A stretch of 58,913 nucleotides of DNA. It comes from Bacteroidetes bacterium QS_9_68_14 (GTDB taxonomy: Bacteria; Bacteroidota; Rhodothermia; Rhodothermales; Salinibacteraceae). Under the pieces are notes generated by a model. It saw nothing but the letters and a program-made list of their open reading frames with translations, did no database searches and was not told the origin of the DNA. Each line of letters starts with the position of its first letter. Positions within the stretch are counted from its first letter, which is position 1. The position numbers were made by a program, and so were the translations under genes. This document shows positions 50,533-58,781 of the stretch, in pieces. The stretch is taken from the NCBI GenBank assembly GCA_003022535.1, contig PXTT01000019.1, positions 1 to 58,913 on the forward strand, read 5' to 3'.

Positions 50533-51723
50533 ATGAAATTTACCGCTTCCAGCGCCGACCTGCTCGACGCGCTCAACACCACGAGCGGGGCCGTTCCCTC
50601 CAAGAGCACGCTCCCGGTCCTCGAGTGCATCCTGTTTGAGAACAAGGAGGGCGCGCTCCTCCTCAGCGCGACGGACCTGGAAATCTCGATCACGCAAGAG
50701 GTGTCCGATGTGCAGTTCGCCGCCAACGGCGAGGCGGGCCGCGACGAGGCCGTGGCCGTGCCCGCGCGCCGCCTGATCGACACGCTACGCGCGTTGCCGG
50801 ACCTGCCCGTGACCTTCACCGCCGAGGAGGGCGACGGCGAAGGCGAGGACCAGATCGCCGTGCGCCTCGAGACCGACCAGGGGGAGTACAAGATGGTCGG
50901 CCACGACGGGGCGGACTACCCCGACCTGCCGGAGCTGGAAAACGAGGAGCAACGCATCGAGCTGGAGAGCAGCCTGCTGAGCCGCGCGATCAAGAAGACC
51001 AGCTTTGCGGTCAGCCAGGACGCGCTGCGGCCCGCGATGATGGGCATCTACTTCGAGATCGGGCCCGAGGAGGGCCGCACCGTCGCTACCGACGGGCACC
51101 GCCTCGTGCGCCTGACGATGGACGAGCTGGTCAGCGAGGAGGAGCTGACTTTCATTGTGCCCGAGAAGGGGCTCTCGCTGGCGGGGCGCGTGGCCTCTGG
51201 CCAGGCCACCGGCGAGGGCGGCCTCTGCACGATCAGCGTGGGCGAGGGCCACGTGGGCTTCAACTTCGGCGAGGCGCAGGTGATGGCCCGCCTGATCGAC
51301 GAGACGTACCCCGACTACGGAGCCGTCATCCCCGACGAGAACGAGAAGACGCTGACGGTGGGCCGCGAGACGCTCCTGGCGGCGGTGAAGCGCGTAGGGC
51401 TCTACTCCTCCTCTACGACCAACCAGATCCGCCTGGAGATCGAGGCGGACCGCCTCGACATCAGTGCCGAGGACATCGAGCGCTCCTCGCGGGCGCACGA
51501 GGAGGTGCGCTGCGACTTCGACGGCAAGGGGGAAAGCGAAATGACCATTGGCTTCAACGCCAACTACCTGACGGAGGTGCTGAGCAACCTGACTGGCGCG
51601 GACGACGTGGTCTTCCGGCTCTCCACGCCCAACCGCGCCGGCATCGTCACCCCCGAGGAGCAGGGCGAGAACGAAGACCTGCTGATGCTCATCATGCCGG
51701 TGATGCTGAACACATATGCGTAG
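50533..51723 (+). CDS. dnaN: DNA polymerase III sliding clamp beta subunit
   Basis: A 396-residue ring clamp. MKFTASSADLLDALNTTSGA and STLPVLECILFE start domain 1. LSRAIKKTSFAVSQDALRPA and MMGIYFEI are in domain 2, DGHRLVRLTMDE in the same domain. The C-terminus PEEQGENEDLLMLIMPVML ends in the hydrophobic-cleft MPVML-type motif. Length is slightly above the usual 370-380 because of acidic inserts. It follows dnaA after 224 nt on the same strand. The integron remnant begins 36 nt after its stop. Confidence 0.95.
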   Translation: MKFTASSADLLDALNTTSGAVPSKSTLPVLECILFENKEGALLLSATDLEISITQEVSDVQFAANGEAGRDEAVAVPARRLIDTLRALPDLPVTFTAEEGDGEGEDQIAVRLETDQGEYKMVGHDGADYPDLPELENEEQRIELESSLLSRAIKKTSFAVSQDALRPAMMGIYFEIGPEEGRTVATDGHRLVRLTMDELVSEEELTFIVPEKGLSLAGRVASGQATGEGGLCTISVGEGHVGFNFGEAQVMARLIDETYPDYGAVIPDENEKTLTVGRETLLAAVKRVGLYSSSTTNQIRLEIEADRLDISAEDIERSSRAHEEVRCDFDGKGESEMTIGFNANYLTEVLSNLTGADDVVFRLSTPNRAGIVTPEEQGENEDLLMLIMPVMLNTYA

Positions 51724-51759: not shown

Positions 51760-51930
51760 TCACTGGGCGTGGAGGCGGTCGAGAGGGCTTTTCGCGCCGG
51801 GGCTGCCGGCGACGTACATGTAGATCATGGCCACCTTTACATCTTCGTGCCCGAGGAGGCACTGCACGGTGCAGGTGTCGTGTCCGCTCTCCGGCAGGTG
51901 CGTGGCGAAGGAGCGGCGGACAGCGGGGCC
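51760..51930 (-). pseudogene. degenerate C-terminal stub of an integron integrase
   Basis: The minus strand reads HGPAVRRSFATHLPESGHDT, then CTVQCLLGHEDVKVAMIYMY and VAGSPGAKSPLDRL, ending in TGA. This matches the catalytic end of IntI-type tyrosine recombinases (HTLRHSFATHLLESGYDIRT, VQELLGHKDVSTTMIYTHV, VRSPLDRL). The His of LLGHEDV survives, but the nucleophile Tyr-Thr-His context has become YMYV, and the HTLRHS block is HGPAVRRS. Nothing of the N-terminal 250 residues can be found upstream. Its orientation, opposite to the cassettes and adjacent to the array, is the normal integron layout. Confidence 0.75.
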
Positions 51931-52123
51931 ATGAGAGGACAGGTTTGGGATGATGTGTTTCCGACGGGGGTGTGCGAGCGTATTGAGCAGACAGGGGCCT
52001 CGTTCATGCTATACGCGTGCTCTCACGTAGGATCAACCTATATCGCAACTCGGTGGCAGCATACGGGTTAGGGGGTCCGATGCCGATCCTACCGGGCGCG
52101 TGATGCATAATTGTAGGTTATAC
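51931..52123 (+). other. attI-like region with first recombination core
   Basis: Between the integrase stub and the first cassette, the core GTTATAC (52117-52123) lies in TAGGTTATACCGC. No paired 5' arm typical of attC was found here, which fits an attI site rather than attC. GGATCAACC and GGGTTAGGG nearby could be weak integrase-binding sites. Confidence 0.45.
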
Positions 52124-52789
52124 CGCTCAGGCACGCTCACAGAAAACCGAACTCATGGTAAACCCCTTACCTTCGCCGCCGCACTTCTTTTCTTCGTTGG
52201 CTTTTGCCGGCCCTCGCCGGTTCAGGCGCAGACCGACACAGGAGTTGAGATCCGTCTGGACACGTCACGGGCGGCGGAAGGTCGAAAGCAACTGAAGCGA
52301 CTTCTGCGCGAATACGACCTCGAACCGTGGCTCTCCACGCGAAAGGTTCTCATCAAACCCTACGCCCGTTCACACAGCCACCCTGTGCTGCGACTCAACA
52401 CCAAGTTCGTGAACGACGACGAAAAAGCACTTTCCACTTTCCTACATGAGCAAGCGCATTGGCACGAGGAAGCCCACAAAGAGGCCGTCAACGACGCTAT
52501 CGACCAGCTTCGAGAGCACTACCCAGATCCACCCAACCACGAAGAAATTGGCACACGCTCTGAATACAGCACGTACCTGCACCTGATCGTAAATTGGCAG
52601 GAACTGGACGGAATGGCGCAGTACGTAGGTGAGGAGAAAGCGCGAGAGGTTCTGTCGTCTCTGGACCGATACGAATGGATTTACGGACAGGTGCTCCAAG
52701 ACACGAGCGAGATCGGAGCGATACTGGCCGAACACGGCTTGCTCATTACACCGGGAGAAGGACTGGTGGTTGAAGCAGATGAACAATGA
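52103..52789 (+). CDS. cassette 1: exported zincin-like protein (HExxH)
   Basis: About 228 residues. A hydrophobic signal-like segment (LTFAAALLFFVGFCRPSPVQAQ) is followed by a domain with FLHEQAHWHEE (HExxH, residues about 115-119) and a later Glu-rich SEYSTYLHLIVNWQELDGMA, a gluzincin-like arrangement. No family recognised; a metal-dependent peptidase is an inference from the motif. The only in-frame ATG ahead of the signal (52103) lies before the integron core at 52117. So the start would come from attI-side sequence, or a non-ATG start is used. The next ATG (52154) is in another frame. Confidence 0.6.
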   Translation: MHNCRLYRSGTLTENRTHGKPLTFAAALLFFVGFCRPSPVQAQTDTGVEIRLDTSRAAEGRKQLKRLLREYDLEPWLSTRKVLIKPYARSHSHPVLRLNTKFVNDDEKALSTFLHEQAHWHEEAHKEAVNDAIDQLREHYPDPPNHEEIGTRSEYSTYLHLIVNWQELDGMAQYVGEEKAREVLSSLDRYEWIYGQVLQDTSEIGAILAEHGLLITPGEGLVVEADEQ

Positions 52790-52792
52790 GCA

Positions 52793-52923
52793 GTATAACC
52801 CAGCGTTGCACCTGACCCTTAGCGTTGCTACTTTCTGCTATGCTCACAGCTCCGTCAAACGTCTTTGCCGACTGAATAGCGCTCACGCCGGAGACGCCAG
52901 CGCAGGTGAACTCACAGTTATGC
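52793..52923 (+). repeat. attC site 1
   Basis: 5' core GTATAAC (52793-52799) and 3' core GTTATGC (52917-52923). Inner arms GCGTTGCACCTGA and CGCAGGTGAACTC are partly complementary. 131 nt. Confidence 0.8.
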
Positions 52924-52948
52924 AGCGCACCTAATAGCTACTTCCAAC

Positions 52949-53299
52949 ATGAAGACGTACGCCCGAGTCGTCTGGCCAGAGCAAAGAGAGGCGATAGAGG
53001 AGGATAAGGTCGTCCCCACCAACCACAACAGGTGGAGTAATGATAATGATATTGTCGGAGTCACATATGAACCGGGTACAGTTGTGATGTTGTGGGACCT
53101 TGAGAAGGAATTTGGTGGAATGCTATCTAGATGGATTGAGGGGCAAGTAAAGGATCATGGCGGTTGTTATTTGCTAAAATTCGAGGCTGATATAGAAACG
53201 GAAATGGATATGACTGGATGGGGACAGTTTGGATCAGTCGTACACGAAGGGCCAATCGACCTAGAAGAAGTAAACATTATTGAGTACGAAAAAGTATAA
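52949..53299 (+). CDS. cassette 2: hypothetical protein
   Basis: A 116-residue soluble acidic protein: MKTYARVVWPEQREAIEEDK, NDNDIVGVTYEPGTVVMLWD, EKEFGGMLSRWIEGQVK, ending IDLEEVNIIEYEKV. No family recognised. Its A/T-rich codons (ATA, AGA, TTA used freely) contrast with the GC-rich chromosome and mark it as acquired. It begins 26 nt after the attC 1 core; the next core starts at 53294, overlapping the last two codons and stop (GTATAAC contains TAA). Confidence 0.7.
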   Translation: MKTYARVVWPEQREAIEEDKVVPTNHNRWSNDNDIVGVTYEPGTVVMLWDLEKEFGGMLSRWIEGQVKDHGGCYLLKFEADIETEMDMTGWGQFGSVVHEGPIDLEEVNIIEYEKV

Positions 53300-53347
53300 C
53301 ATAAAGATAGTTAATTGGTACAACACTATAGTAAACAAAAGTTATGA
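53294..53347 (+). repeat. attC site 2 (short)
   Basis: 5' core GTATAAC (53294-53300) includes the cassette 2 stop. 3' core GTTATGA (53341-53347) includes the cassette 3 start ATG. Only 54 nt, shorter than the usual attC range, with an AT-rich middle and weak ATAG / CTAT arms. Confidence 0.55.
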
Positions 53348-54093
53348 AATGTGCACTATGCCTAGAAGATAAGAAGCTTAGAAAATCTCATATAATACCA
53401 GAGTTCTTCTACAAGCCGATATACGAGGAGGATCCGGAGAGATATTTTGGAGTTTCGACCGATTCGTCAGAGGGAATTGACCATAGGCAGCAGGGAATTT
53501 GGGGCCGCCTATTGTGTGGGGATTGCGAACAACATTTGAGTAAATGGGAGGACTATGCCAGCACTCTGCTTTACCAGAGGGCTCAAGTTCAGGAGATCTC
53601 TATTGGACTCAGAGTAGTCAACGTAGAATACGAAAAGTTTAAGCTTTTTCTGCTCTCTTTGCTTTGGCGTGCCGGTGCTACCAGCAGGAAGGAGTTTAGT
53701 GAGGTATCTCTTGGTCCACACGAGGAGAAATTGCGAAGGATGCTTATCGAAAGCGAACCAGGTCCGCCGGAGAAGTATGGATGCATGCCAGTACTATGTC
53801 CAAAGTATAAGGACCTCTTACAGAAGATGATTATCTCGCCGGACACCGTTAAGGTAAGAGCACATCACGTTGTGCGATTCCTCCTTGGAGGGCTGTTTTG
53901 GAATTTTTTCGTGTCCAGCCACACACCATCGATTGCCTCCGACGGTATTTTCCTGACCGAAGGTGGTGAACTCACAATTCTGGCGGAGTCAGAATTTACC
54001 AGCGATTACATTGAACAACTTTATAGGCGCTGGAAGGACTCTGGCAATCTGGACGATCTGAGTGACAAATTTGGCGCCAATAACGCTGCATAA
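53344..54093 (+). CDS. cassette 3: Cys/His-rich HNH-like protein
   Basis: A 249-residue protein starting MKCALCLEDKKLRKSHIIPE, then FFYKPIYEEDPERYFG. The CxxC, SHIIP and later LLCGDCEQHLSKWE (CxxC-4-H) form the zinc and histidine pattern of HNH_5-like endonucleases. The helical C-terminal two thirds (FKLFLLSLLWRAGATSR; HHVVRFLLGGLFWNFFVSS) is unassigned. Nuclease activity is inferred. The start ATG lies inside the attC 2 core GTTATGA; the stop TAA (54091) lies inside the attC 3 5' core GCATAAC. Confidence 0.7.
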   Translation: MKCALCLEDKKLRKSHIIPEFFYKPIYEEDPERYFGVSTDSSEGIDHRQQGIWGRLLCGDCEQHLSKWEDYASTLLYQRAQVQEISIGLRVVNVEYEKFKLFLLSLLWRAGATSRKEFSEVSLGPHEEKLRRMLIESEPGPPEKYGCMPVLCPKYKDLLQKMIISPDTVKVRAHHVVRFLLGGLFWNFFVSSHTPSIASDGIFLTEGGELTILAESEFTSDYIEQLYRRWKDSGNLDDLSDKFGANNAA

Positions 54094-54278
54094 CCTTCGC
54101 TAGAGGTGACGGAAGGCTGATGCCACCATCGATCGAAATGCGTTCGGAGGTTTTGACTTCGCCGTTCGAGCGCGCCTCAGCCAGTGAATGGAAACTCCGG
54201 CTAGCGCGGTTATTTCTTGTTAGACGGCGCTCTGGTTGGCGTTTTCCCGCCGTCCGCACCTCAGCTAAATCGTTATGC
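54088..54278 (+). repeat. attC site 3 (possibly two merged sites)
   Basis: 5' core GCATAAC (54088-54094). Two 3' cores are possible: GTTAGAC (54219-54225), which fits the classical GTTRRRY consensus, and GTTATGC (54272-54278). Arms CGCTAG / CTAGCG pair with the first. GAGGTGACGG and CCGTCCGCACCTC pair with the second. GACGGC/GCCGTC lies between the two cores. Confidence 0.7.
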
Positions 54279-54309
54279 GTCTCATCGCTTACTAACGCCT
54301 TTCCGAATC

Positions 54310-55860
54310 TTGGCGGATACTTACGATTCGAAAGCAATTACCGGAAGCGTGTATGAAGCAATTCAATCCTGTACGAAGTTCGAAAACTCACCGATAACTG
54401 GAAGTTGGACCCAAGAGATAGTGTCGAACGTGATTTACGACGAACGCCCATTTTATAGAACGATCGAATGCGTAGGTACGCTTTCTTCGGGAGGCGAAAA
54501 AGTTGATAACCTTCAGATCGAAATCGAGTATTCGGAGACAAAGCCAGACACCATTCGAGGTACTGTCATCGGATCAGCCGAAGATAGTGCTCGGATTATG
54601 AGGCTCTCTTCAGGCCCCGATGAGTGGAAACTTGTAGCTGAGGACTCACGCGGCGGTGGGGAATTCCGGTTATTTAGCGATACGGTGGCAGTGACCTCAA
54701 TGGCAATGATGTGGAACTCGGATCAAAAGCCGGTTCGTCCGATTCTCCGGTTCGAATTACTGGACTTCAGGAAAATCCGAACCTTTTCGAAAAGTCAGGA
54801 ATCGGAACCTCGCCGTCTACTTTATTTTCTGGATGGTCCGGAGCGCCCTTGGGAAGGAGCCATTCAGCGGGAGATCTCTGATGGAGGAGAATTTATTTAC
54901 CAGAATAGCTACCTTGATCTCGATCTTCGATCTCCCTTGAGGCTGTTCGTAACTAAGGAACTCTTCACTGACCAGGATCCAGACGATTCCTCCACGAGCC
55001 TTCGGACGCATGTTCCGATGTTGGGGGTATCCACCGATGCTCCGGAGGCAGAGCTTTCGACAGATAGATTTGTAGAACGAGCTGACCAATTACTCGAAGA
55101 CGTTTTGCTTTTGATGTCTCTCGGCTCCAAGCAGTGGTCCGTCTGGTTCGCCTCACAGCTCATCGTTCCTGGCAATCTTATTCAGGATCGCGTTCAAACG
55201 ACATCCCGAACGGTTTCCAACCAAGAGCCAGCTGAGAACATGGTCCCGGTCCCACCTAGCGATGCACTTGACTTCCTCCAAACCGTCCTGCCTCGGTACA
55301 GAGACTTTCGAAGAGAAGGTTGCGCCATGAAAACTGCTATTCAGACAACTCTTGCAAGCAGAGAGGAAGATTACGTCGAAAGCCAGTTCCTGAGTCTCTT
55401 CACTGCACTGGAAACACTGAAAAATATTTTTGCAGAACAAGAAGGTTTGGTAACTCTGCTGGATCAGGACACCTTTGAGGAAATGAGAAGCGACCTGAAA
55501 GATGTGGTTCGGGAACACATAGGTGGTGATGAGAACAGCGATCTGCGTAAAGAAATCTACAAATCGATGTTCGGCCTGAACAGACCATCCCTTCAATCAC
55601 TCCTTAACGGGATGTTCGAAAAATACGATACAGGAATTGAGGATCTGTATCCTCAAGACAAAAAATCAACTCTTAAAGACACGCGAAACAATCTCGTTCA
55701 TGGGAGAGGTGCACCTGATGATACAAGTAAACTGACAAATGAAATCCTCCGGCTCCAGGCACTCGTCAATCGACTTATACTGCGTATGCTAGGATGGAAT
55801 GACGTTTCTCAGTGCCCACCTGATTCAAGAAAAAGCCGTCTCAAAGGTTGTAGGGCATAA
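54310..55860 (+). CDS. cassette 4: large HEPN-domain protein
   Basis: About 516 residues. The N-terminal half is beta-rich and unassigned (GSWTQEIVSNVIYDERPFYR; IEIEYSETKPDTIRGTVIGS). The C-terminal half is helical (ESQFLSLFTALETLKNIFAE; DLKDVVREHIGG). It ends with DTRNNLVHGRG, the R-x4-H active-site motif of HEPN ribonucleases, near residue 460. The architecture resembles ApeA/HEPN abortive-infection proteins; function is inferred. No ATG follows the recombination core in frame, so TTG at 54310 is the best start. The stop TAA lies inside the next core GCATAAC. This is the largest cassette gene here. Confidence 0.68.
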   Translation: MADTYDSKAITGSVYEAIQSCTKFENSPITGSWTQEIVSNVIYDERPFYRTIECVGTLSSGGEKVDNLQIEIEYSETKPDTIRGTVIGSAEDSARIMRLSSGPDEWKLVAEDSRGGGEFRLFSDTVAVTSMAMMWNSDQKPVRPILRFELLDFRKIRTFSKSQESEPRRLLYFLDGPERPWEGAIQREISDGGEFIYQNSYLDLDLRSPLRLFVTKELFTDQDPDDSSTSLRTHVPMLGVSTDAPEAELSTDRFVERADQLLEDVLLLMSLGSKQWSVWFASQLIVPGNLIQDRVQTTSRTVSNQEPAENMVPVPPSDALDFLQTVLPRYRDFRREGCAMKTAIQTTLASREEDYVESQFLSLFTALETLKNIFAEQEGLVTLLDQDTFEEMRSDLKDVVREHIGGDENSDLRKEIYKSMFGLNRPSLQSLLNGMFEKYDTGIEDLYPQDKKSTLKDTRNNLVHGRGAPDDTSKLTNEILRLQALVNRLILRMLGWNDVSQCPPDSRKSRLKGCRA

Positions 55861-55978
55861 CACGTCGCTACACCTGACGAAAAGAGGAGGTCAGTTTGCT
55901 TTCCTTGGATATTGGTACTTCCATTGCTCTCAACAGTGGAAGTGCCACGACTTTTCGCAGGTGAGATTTCCGTTATGG
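55855..55978 (+). repeat. attC site 4
   Basis: 5' core GCATAAC (55855-55861), arm CGCTACACCTGACGAAAAG, central stem ACTTCCA / TGGAAGT, arm CTTTTCGCAGGTGAGA, 3' core GTTATGG (55972-55978). 124 nt. This is one of the best-formed sites of the array. Confidence 0.85.
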
Positions 55979-56057
55979 GTCCCTCTCTGAATCTCTATCC
56001 CTTGACGATTACGTTAAGCTAACTCCCAAGCTTCTCGTTACTGAAAAGACATAGCAC

Positions 56058-56885
56058 ATGGAAGGAGAAGCCCCCGGCAATTGGCTAACGCAGATCAACA
56101 GTATTGGACCATGGATTCTTTCTCTACTGGCACTCCTGCAAGTATGGGTTTTGGAGGCATGGAGGAAGTGGCGGACGGGAAAAATAGAAATCCATGCAAA
56201 CCAAGTTGAAGTAGGTTATGGAGCACTCGGACCTGTTTTTTCTATCTTCGGCACCCTGAGATGTACTCGCAACGATGTTTTCGTGGAAGAGGTGCGGGCC
56301 CAACTTGTTAAGGAGAGGGATAATGCGAAACACTCATTTACGTGGTTGGCGGTTAGACCGACGACAGTTTCCGTAACCGGCGAAAGTCAGGAAGAGCTGG
56401 AAATAGCATCGGCTTTTCAGGTGAAGAAAGGGAATACAAGAAAATTCGGGTTTCTCTTTCACGAAGAGAGATTTCGAGAAGAGCATCGTCCAACGCTCGA
56501 AGAACTTGAGCAACAGTGGATAGAATATTATAGAGATTCAAGCGAGCAAATCATTGATCAAGCAAACGGAAACAACCAGCAAGTCCCTGACCGAGCCACG
56601 CTTTCCCAGCACATTTTTAATAGGTTTGTTGAGGATGGACATACAACCGACGAGTACACTGAAATGGATAGGGCCTGCTATTGGGAAGAAGGTGAGTATA
56701 GGGTGACAGTCAAAGTAGACTCCTCAAATCCAGACGAAGTATTCGAAAAATATTTTTCATTTGATTTGTATGAAAGAGAGGCAGAGGCTCTTAGAAATAA
56801 TTCAATGGTGGCAATTAGGGAGACCTGTAACCAGCCACATAACTACCAATTTGCATATCCTAATCTCGAAAAGGTCGAAGAATAG
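56058..56885 (+). CDS. cassette 5: hypothetical membrane-anchored protein
   Basis: 275 residues. A single N-terminal helix (IGPWILSLLALLQVWVLEAW, residues 17-36) is followed by a large soluble domain: KIEIHANQVEVGYGALGPVF, FSIFGTLRCTRNDVFVEEVR, an acidic helical middle, then EEGEYRVTVKVDSSNPDEVF. No family recognised. With the basic WRKWR after the helix, the bulk is predicted to face the cytoplasm. AT-rich codon use (ATA, AGA, AAT) again differs from the chromosome. It begins 80 nt after the attC 4 core. Confidence 0.68.
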   Translation: MEGEAPGNWLTQINSIGPWILSLLALLQVWVLEAWRKWRTGKIEIHANQVEVGYGALGPVFSIFGTLRCTRNDVFVEEVRAQLVKERDNAKHSFTWLAVRPTTVSVTGESQEELEIASAFQVKKGNTRKFGFLFHEERFREEHRPTLEELEQQWIEYYRDSSEQIIDQANGNNQQVPDRATLSQHIFNRFVEDGHTTDEYTEMDRACYWEEGEYRVTVKVDSSNPDEVFEKYFSFDLYEREAEALRNNSMVAIRETCNQPHNYQFAYPNLEKVEE

Positions 56886-56889
56886 AGAC

Positions 56890-57077
56890 ACATAACACTC
56901 CGATACAGCTGACAAGGGGCAGGTGCCGGTTTTGATCGAGGTCACCGACGCGGGTTCGTCTTCGCTGGCCCGGCGTGCTCACGCCGTGGGATGGATACTT
57001 CGGCGGGCGGAGTCGTTTAGCCGAGTAGCTCCGATTTAACGAAGAAAAGCCCCTTGCAGCTGAGCTTCACGTTATAC
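56890..57077 (+). repeat. attC site 5 (long)
   Basis: 5' core ACATAAC (56890-56896), arm CAGCTGACAAGGGGC, arm GCCCCTTGCAGCTGAG, 3' core GTTATAC (57071-57077). 188 nt, longer than usual, with GC-rich middle material (GCGTGCTCACGCCGTGG). Confidence 0.8.
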
Positions 57078-57155
57078 GGCCCTGGTGCCGAAGCAACGAG
57101 AACGAAAAGAAATCGACCGACGACCCCAAACAGACTTTTTACTTGCCACAGCGTC

Positions 57156-57347
57156 ATGGTTACCGAATCCGAAGTCCAGACCAAAGACGATTTGGAGCGC
57201 CGAAACAAGGCGTGGAAGCACTGCGCCGAGCGTGAAGACTATAGGTGCGCTATCTGCGGGCAGGTGCCGCCTTACGGTGAGCGGGAAATCTACTTTGAGA
57301 GCGGACTCTGTGGTTTCCACGCTCACACGCTCAACAAGGACGACTGA
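57156..57347 (+). CDS. cassette 6a: small Cys/His protein
   Basis: A 63-residue protein MVTESEVQTKDDLERRNKAW, ending with CAICGQVPPYGEREIYFESG and LCGFHAHTL. The CxxC and C-x2-H-x-H arrangement suggests a zinc site, possibly a minimal HNH-like or zinc-ribbon fold. No family recognised. It shares its cassette with the lipoprotein gene 57 nt downstream, with no attC between them. Confidence 0.55.
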   Translation: MVTESEVQTKDDLERRNKAWKHCAEREDYRCAICGQVPPYGEREIYFESGLCGFHAHTLNKDD

Positions 57348-57404
57348 ATCAGGCCGTCTGTAAATCGTACGGAACACCATTTTCAAAACTTTACTTTCCT
57401 GTCC

Positions 57405-57779
57405 ATGCGATTCGCTTCGACCGGATTACTTCTCGCACTTGCTTTGTTGATCGCCGGATGCGATAGCAACAGCTCCGAGGACGGAAACGAACCGCCCGTT
57501 ATTGAGGAAATACTTGTCAACCCATCAACGGTTGAACCCTCACGAGGTGCTGAATTGACAGCCGTAGCAACCGATCCAGAAGGGGAAGAGCTAAGTTATT
57601 TCTGGAGCAGCGACGGTGGTAAAATAGAAACTGGTCTTTCGTCCTATTCGACCACCACGAACCCTGCACAATGGGAGTCACTGGACGAAACCGGGGATTA
57701 CGAGATCAAATGTACGGTGAGCGATTCGGAATCGACTGCCAGCAAAACCGTTACGGTCGAAGTGCGTCAATCGAATTGA
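57405..57779 (+). CDS. cassette 6b: lipoprotein with PKD/Ig-like domain
   Basis: A 124-residue protein. Signal and lipobox LLIAGCDS (Cys22). The mature part has one Ig/PKD-like fold: PPVIEEILVNPSTVEPSRGA, ELTAVATDPEGEELSYFWSS, DETGDYEIKCTVSDSES, TVTVEVRQ. The order of strands (PxxxxxxxxxP, DPEGxxLxYxWxxxxG, GxYxxxxxVxD) is typical of cadherin-like/PKD surface modules. It is likely exported and membrane-anchored. The stop lies four bases before the next attC core. Confidence 0.8.
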   Translation: MRFASTGLLLALALLIAGCDSNSSEDGNEPPVIEEILVNPSTVEPSRGAELTAVATDPEGEELSYFWSSDGGKIETGLSSYSTTTNPAQWESLDETGDYEIKCTVSDSESTASKTVTVEVRQSN

Positions 57780-57782
57780 GCC

Positions 57783-57908
57783 GTACAACCAATCATTGCA
57801 GCCGACCGTGGGCTGTCGGCTCCCAGACGCGCGCCAGCATCACAAAAACCTCGTCACTACGATTTGAAAGTGATCGCTTCCCACGGCGGCTGAATTCTGC
57901 CGTTATAC
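57783..57908 (+). repeat. attC site 6
   Basis: 5' core GTACAAC (57783-57789), arm GCAGCCGACCGTGGG, arm CCCACGGCGGCTGAATTC, 3' core GTTATAC (57902-57908). 126 nt, with strong arm pairing. Confidence 0.87.
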
Positions 57909-57929
57909 CAATTCCTCCAAGGCTGTGGC

Positions 57930-58667
57930 ATGAGCTGTATTTTTTGCAAGGAGGAGGTTGGCTCCGAGCATGAGGAGCATATACTTCCTGAATCATTGGG
58001 TGGCAAGGACTGGGCAGTGTTGCCAGAAGGCCTCGTTTGTGAGAAGTGCAACCAATATTTTGGTGCGAAGGTCGAGTCGCCTGCCTTAAGCAGTTTTCCT
58101 TTCCTCCCATTTCGGTTGTTCTTGCAAATCCCGACCAAGCGGGGTAAAGCTCCACGTCAGCAGGTAACCATCGGTGAGATTATGTCGAGTGGTATCCCTG
58201 GGGTGGTTGGTGCTAACCCCAGGGATGATGAAATCGAAACTGGCATTCGTGAGGAGAATGTCACCCAGATGCGAATCAGAGCAGAAGTGACTGAGCCGCT
58301 TGCAGTCAGCAGACTTTTGTTGAAAATGGGTTTGGAAGTCGTAGCTGCTGACAATGCCGAAGATGCGCTATCTGAAAAATTTGATGAGGCCAGGAAATTT
58401 GTGAGGGCTCCCGCGACGGGCTCAGAATGGTGGTTTTTGATGGTTACAGATCATGATTCTCTGTTTCGTAAACTCAAACAAGGGGTAACATGTCAGGAGT
58501 GGTTCGAAGGTTTAAAGTTGGAAGTTGTGGATGAGCAAGGAGCCGAAGTATTTCACCTTCAGCTCATAGACATGCATTTCATTACGCCGCTCGAAAGAAG
58601 AGTTGGCCCACCAGACATGTCAGACCTCTCCGAACCAAAGTACAGGCTCTTCAACCCGGTGTGTTGA
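57930..58667 (+). CDS. cassette 7: HNH endonuclease-like protein
   Basis: A 245-residue protein. MSCIFCKEEVGSEHEEHILP, followed by ESLGGKDWAVLPEGLVCEKC and NQYFGAKVES, is an HNH_5-type fold: CxxC, EHILPESLGG (the H-I-P catalytic block) and CxxCN. The C-terminal two thirds (VSRLLLKMGLEVVAADNAED; EWWFLMVTDHDSLF) is unassigned. It could be a defensive or mobile nuclease; this is inferred. ATG 57930 lies 22 nt after the recombination core, and the stop precedes the next core by five bases. Confidence 0.78.
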   Translation: MSCIFCKEEVGSEHEEHILPESLGGKDWAVLPEGLVCEKCNQYFGAKVESPALSSFPFLPFRLFLQIPTKRGKAPRQQVTIGEIMSSGIPGVVGANPRDDEIETGIREENVTQMRIRAEVTEPLAVSRLLLKMGLEVVAADNAEDALSEKFDEARKFVRAPATGSEWWFLMVTDHDSLFRKLKQGVTCQEWFEGLKLEVVDEQGAEVFHLQLIDMHFITPLERRVGPPDMSDLSEPKYRLFNPVC

Positions 58668-58672
58668 GATTG

Positions 58673-58781
58673 GTATAACCTCCATTGCAGCCGACGACGG
58701 TGATGCCCTTTTGCAAAATTGATTCTTCCTCGGCTCTCTCCATGCGTCGAAGCCCGTCGCGGCTGAATTTCCACGTTATGC
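58673..58781 (+). repeat. attC site 7
   Basis: 5' core GTATAAC (58673-58679), arm GCAGCCGACGACGG, arm CCGTCGCGGCTGAATTT, 3' core GTTATGC (58775-58781). 109 nt. Its 3' part closely resembles site 6. Confidence 0.87.

Follow-up and report, generated by a model that had tools for sequence, protein, structure and literature searches.

An integron cassette of a Salinibacteraceae bacterium encodes a divergent HEPN protein of the Apea group

What kind of protein is encoded by the open reading frame (ORF) at 54310-55860 of the window (the whole stretch of 58,913 nucleotides that was analyzed), how is its gene carried, and what might it do? The gene lies on the forward strand and runs from TTG 54310 to a TAA that ends at 55860, giving 516 amino acids without an internal stop. 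Its start codon is uncertain. The reading frame is open from 54217, and both full-length relatives described below start about 40 residues inside the aligned N-terminus, so that GTG 54349 and GTG 54430 are possible alternatives to TTG 54310; the first 40 or so residues counted from the TTG may not be translated. The GC content of the gene was 48% (GC3, 47.5%), whereas the dnaN-like gene next to the array has 67% (GC3, 93%), and by this measure the HEPN gene looks foreign to the local chromosome.

The gene was found to occupy an integron cassette (54273-55972, forward strand) that extends from the G/TT point of the upstream attC to the G/TT point of its own attC. The bounding R' heptamers are GTTATGC (54272-54278) and GTTATGG (55972-55978). 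The first belongs to the attC-like site closing the upstream cassette (54088-54278; score, 15), whose bottom strand folds to a hairpin, and the second to the attC-like site of the HEPN cassette itself (55855-55978; score, 14), which also folds and holds the stop codon TAA at 55858-55860. Altogether, six attC-like sites were found from 52793 to 58781, all in one direction on the forward strand. Five reached the threshold of the pairing scan (score of at least 14), namely, the two sites above, that of the first cassette in the array (52793-52923), and those at 57783-57908 and 58673-58781, the latter being the last in the contig. The sixth, after the cassette at 56058-56885, is a hairpin at 56890-57077 that was found by eye and fell below the scan threshold. 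Against the five scan sites in this 7.2-kb region, 20 shuffles of it yielded 6 in total (0.3 each), and the other 51.7 kb of the window gave 1 site. In all five scored sites the 5' L arm carries one additional base, as is expected of attC. An Rfam scan of the cassette array returned no family. The sequence-only reading had proposed a cassette-borne, single-gene unit, and this was borne out by attC-like sites of the same orientation on either side and by the HEPN gene being the sole ORF between them.

Other cassettes of the array were also inspected, and no recognized defense genes were found in it. The product of the first cassette (52100-52789) may be secreted and contains the stretch HEQAHWHEE, which resembles a zinc-protease motif; it had no Pfam match above the cut-off. 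The cassette at 57930-58667 encodes a Cys-rich nuclease-like protein that matches HNH_5 (PF14279; E = 2.8e-12), and that at 53344-54093 encodes another, which starts by eye with a similar CxxC...H...CxxC pattern and has no model match. The cassette product encoded at 57405-57779 resembles a lipoprotein and has a PKD domain (PF00801 and related models).

The cassette array adjoins genes that we take to be the replication genes dnaA and dnaN, the dnaN-like gene lying at 50533-51723. Directly downstream of the dnaN-like gene, on the reverse strand and directed away from the array, lies a decayed integron integrase (51763-52008) that matched TIGR02249 with 49 bits at 51772-51948 and PF00589 with 33.4 bits. 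Only its C-terminal end is kept, corresponding to the final 59 positions (257 to 315) of the IntI model. This remnant was found near the array in place of a functional integron integrase, and no further integrase match was found elsewhere in the window's own genome; this genome is a draft of 76 contigs with a completeness of 56%, and thus little can be concluded from the lack of an intact integrase. In the same family, TIGR02249 gave some match in 27 of 27 genomes and a match above the cut-off in 13; the window's own genome was searched among the 27 and is not one of the 13. Matches below the cut-off were also obtained in all 14 control genomes. The truncation of IntI would be consistent with an array that has lost its integrase and in which the HEPN gene is an unexpressed cassette remnant, as would the TTG start with no obvious ribosome-binding site by eye, and it is common for cassette genes to have no promoter of their own. 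However, the 516-codon frame is intact and its stop is located in attC, an intact integrase may be missing from the draft, and the 13 family genomes with integrase matches above the cut-off also argue against an unexpressed remnant, which we consider unlikely.

The C-terminal half of the protein was identified by Pfam HEPN_Apea (PF18739), which matched 55390-55803 with an E value of 2.7e-7 and 31.6 bits, above the curated cut-off of 24.4; a second search gave 35.3 bits. The PADLOC Cas13-ApeA model matched the same C-terminal stretch (E = 8.5e-9), and the PADLOC matches of the protein consisted only of the Cas13-ApeA HEPN models of 175 to 187 residues and a weak CARF_HEPN model. The sole R-x4-H of the protein, RNNLVH (residues 459 to 464, with R459 and H464; 55684-55701), is located inside the PF18739 match at the aligned R/H position. 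By itself, R-x4-H would be poor evidence for HEPN, to which its position within the PF18739 match adds: among 20,000 residue shuffles of the protein, any R-x4-H occurred in 21%, R[NDH]-x3-H in 2.7%, and R[NDH]-x3-H within the last 150 residues in 0.8%. The earlier assignment of the motif to a HEPN domain was supported, as PF18739 spans RNNLVH above its cut-off, while the membership of this half in a named family, ApeA, had been overlooked.

Conservation of the Arg and His in homologues had been set beforehand as a test of this assignment, and it holds. R-x4-H is kept in all seven relatives having the HEPN half, as RNKLFH (L021/L014), RDILFH (L023), RNDLFH (L024), RDSLAH (L027), RNDYMH (L032), RNKLTH (L052), and RNLLAH (L053). 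When the window protein was aligned with six of these, L053 being outside the alignment, the columns without variation across the seven sequences held a Ser, an Asp, and the Arg and His of the motif; in a six-sequence alignment, one Glu (E318 of the 477-residue form) was invariant as well. In addition, the HEPN halves of the window family and of classical ApeA were matched by hhalign with a probability of 96 to 97% and scores of 59 to 68, compared with 10 to 15 for a column-shuffled C half. At the thresholds used, PF18739 gave no match to L023 (full length), L024, L027, L032, or L052. AlphaFold2 with two sequences predicted the C half to be all-helical, with the motif (residues 146 to 151 of the model) near the end of helix 142-154, at a mean pLDDT of 44.3 that is too low for the model to be relied on. 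A Foldseek search of the PDB with this low-confidence model gave nothing at an E value of ≤0.001 (best, 1.2), and no HEPN entry was named among the 50 matches listed. We conclude that the cassette product belongs, as a divergent member, with the Apea HEPN proteins.

Relatives of the protein are rare. Single-sequence searches of genome contigs, viral contigs, plasmids, and phages returned none, and among 100 related genomes the only match was the window itself. Relatives were reached only via the Pfam family and, after that, with the L014 protein and with profiles of two and three rows; further scans of viral, plasmid, and phage sequences gave nothing new. With the three-row profile at an E value of ≤0.001, the phylum gave 5 matching genomes out of 395, the class 5 out of 244, and the order of G133 2 out of 20, counts that include the window, chance rows, and weak rows. 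Full-length matches were limited to the window, G422, and G133. The closest relatives share 24 to 30% identity with the window protein and align over nearly its whole length: L014/L021, from an uncultured Aliifodinibius MAG (CAJXMW010000001.1), shows 24% identity (E = 1e-31 by phmmer against 151 ORFs), and L023, from genome G133, shows about 30%. Beside the HEPN genes of L021 and L023 the pairing scan found no attC-like sites, indicating that carriage by an integron is not shared across the family. Several candidates were rejected. L028 and L029 matched at an E value of ≤0.001 and were judged to be chance matches, the ORF of the former being outer-membrane-like and the ORFs listed for the latter including no HEPN-like one. 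L016, L017, and L020 are among the PF18739 matches and are not ApeA in appearance, and L018, with an N-terminus similar by eye, gave an hhalign probability of only 1.1%.

We also examined the neighbors of the relatives, those of L052 and L053 being read as ORFs only. A bSEFIR gene (PADLOC E = 3.3e-107) lies at a distance of 0.7 kb from the L023 gene. L027, a weaker relative, lies between the type I restriction genes EcoEI_R_C and Methylase_S, and the accessory region around L021 contains a Fic gene (PADLOC SoFic/PDC-S04), a DUF6088 gene, and a weak DUF4145 match. L024 is plasmid-borne, in Xanthomonas, and has transposases around it. Immediately after the HEPN gene of L023 and on the same strand, L041 8109-8618 encodes a 170-residue protein with a PDFAIFNQRKIIFIECLTE stretch that resembles a PD-(D/E)XK nuclease core; it had no match in Pfam or PADLOC. 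In L032, the ORF at 461-1156, which follows the weak HEPN relative at a distance of 0.3 kb on the same strand, is class III nucleotide cyclase-like by eye, and a cyclase-HEPN pair is possible there; this ORF, the one L032 neighbor that was scanned, had no Pfam or PADLOC match.

The front half of the protein (about 360 residues from the TTG; 54310-55389) showed no match in Pfam, NCBIfam, PADLOC, or PDB sequences, and it recurs fused to the same HEPN in the two other bacteria represented by L014/L021 and L023. No Pfam match to ApeA_NTD1 (PF18862) was obtained at an E value of 1 or 10, and the protein did not match the full-length ApeA-like models of PADLOC (PDC-S58). In contrast, classical ApeA of the same phylum matched PF18862 at up to an E value of 3.9e-41 and carried HEPN_Apea too, and L003 and L007 matched PDC-S58. 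Because PADLOC recognizes the HEPN half only, its full-length models would miss this protein. A beta-rich front half is plausible: an AlphaFold2 model of the full protein from two sequences confined its strands to the part preceding residue 202 and placed most helices beyond it, but with a mean pLDDT of 33.7, too low for the model to be relied on. The sequence-only reading had called this half unlike anything recognized; for database matches this stands, but about 300 N-terminal residues followed by an Apea HEPN is an architecture already described for ApeA in the available text of PMC3710099, and the protein is thus not a new kind of protein.

The protein may even be ApeA proper, with an ApeA_NTD1 that has diverged past recognition and retains the same fold and trigger. 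The parts are in the same order and of the same size, and a whole-protein profile-profile match to classical ApeA (174-460 against 166-461) begins about 130 residues ahead of the HEPN. For this pre-HEPN stretch, a six-sequence profile scored 25.8, compared with at most 13.3 in 20 column shuffles. ApeA-NTD1 is also described, in the same available text, as a domain of about 300 residues that is mostly beta strands and is abundant yet poorly conserved (PMC3710099). However, with a three-sequence profile the pre-HEPN stretch scored 11.2, with shuffles up to 12.7; the first 200 residues of the window family were not significant against classical ApeA with either profile; and hhalign of the front halves gave insignificant probabilities of 2.1% and 0.2%. 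We give this reading slightly less than an even chance. It is a narrower form of the explanation preferred below and is compatible with it. Alternatively, and tentatively, the front half could be a sensor unrelated to ApeA_NTD1, and the small family composed of the window, the Fodinibius/Aliifodinibius genome, and G133 would then couple an Apea HEPN nuclease to a new trigger, portable by integrons as a one-gene defense. Because a diverged ApeA_NTD1 and an unrelated domain are indistinguishable here, we call the protein ApeA-like rather than ApeA.

The preferred explanation, with a probability of roughly 0.6, is that the single-gene integron cassette encodes a divergent ApeA-like HEPN ribonuclease that most likely acts as a one-protein abortive-infection defense. 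HEPN_Apea homology, the conserved Arg and His, the cassette boundaries, and the presence of the entire protein in two further bacteria form its observed basis, and the ApeA family and the neighbors of the relatives point indirectly to the abortive-infection role. HEPN RNases in general are described, in the available text of PMC13405049, as dimers that cut RNA, in several defense systems tRNA, upon infection. By analogy, we infer dimerization, RNA cleavage, sensing by the front half, and defense for the window protein. In uninfected cells, the front half of about 300 residues would keep the C-terminal HEPN inactive. A phage-linked signal would bind the front half, upon which two HEPN domains would pair and their two R-x4-H motifs would make up one RNase site; host RNA, perhaps tRNA, would then be cut, translation would stop, and no phage would be produced. 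ApeA is reportedly activated by deoxydinucleotides. As the front half does not match ApeA_NTD1, the sensing step is borrowed from a family to which this half may not belong. Overall, the HEPN cassette gene seen by the sequence-only reading was confirmed, and its interpretation was supported in part, the defense role only indirectly, with the link to ApeA having been missed.

The protein could instead be a HEPN toxin that aids the upkeep of the cassette array or induces stress dormancy, with no response to phage. Stress dormancy has been proposed for integron-borne HEPN domains of the PDB 3jrt family (available text of PMC3710099), and the HEPN gene here is likewise within a cassette array and beside an integrase remnant. 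However, its cassette contains a single ORF with no paired antitoxin gene, and the 300-residue front half, which is also conserved in two further genomes, hints at a domain for sensing or control. In addition, PDB sequence searches with the window protein at E values up to 1 or 10 found neither the 3jrt chain nor any other PDB HEPN, and the relatives adjoin defense genes. We regard a toxin of this kind as improbable. If the ApeA-like protein is defensive, it would represent a second type of front half among ApeA-style HEPN effectors and would extend the integron storage of anti-phage genes to another bacterial lineage, and the two full-length relatives could serve as a ready test set for the sensing target of the front half.

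Among known systems, ApeA shares with the window protein a C-terminal Apea-family HEPN with R-x4-H, about 300 residues ahead of it, and a single protein of similar length. Restriction-modification and other defense neighbors among the relatives are a further likeness; ApeA, which has a conserved motif, is embedded in restriction-modification operons in epsilonproteobacteria according to the available text of PMC3710099. The window protein differs in a front half that is not recognized as ApeA_NTD1, in the lack of a PDC-S58 match, and in its integron cassette. The integron-cassette HEPN of the PDB 3jrt family (PMC3710099, Table 1) shares the HEPN prediction, R-x4-H, and the cassette location, whereas the window protein has a long front half and groups with the Apea HEPN; the available text of PMC3710099 treats these two as separate families. 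Literature searches that combined ApeA with integron, or HEPN with both integron and attC, turned up no account of a cassette-borne ApeA HEPN in the portions of text available. Integrons as stores of anti-phage genes are cited in the available part of PMC12444791. Compared with the anti-phage integron cassettes cited there (Darracq 2025, Getz 2025, Kieffer 2025), the window lineage shares its GTDB class with the Fodinibius/Aliifodinibius genome and not with Vibrio, and its defense is one that we infer; like them, it has a single-gene cassette with a likely defense function.
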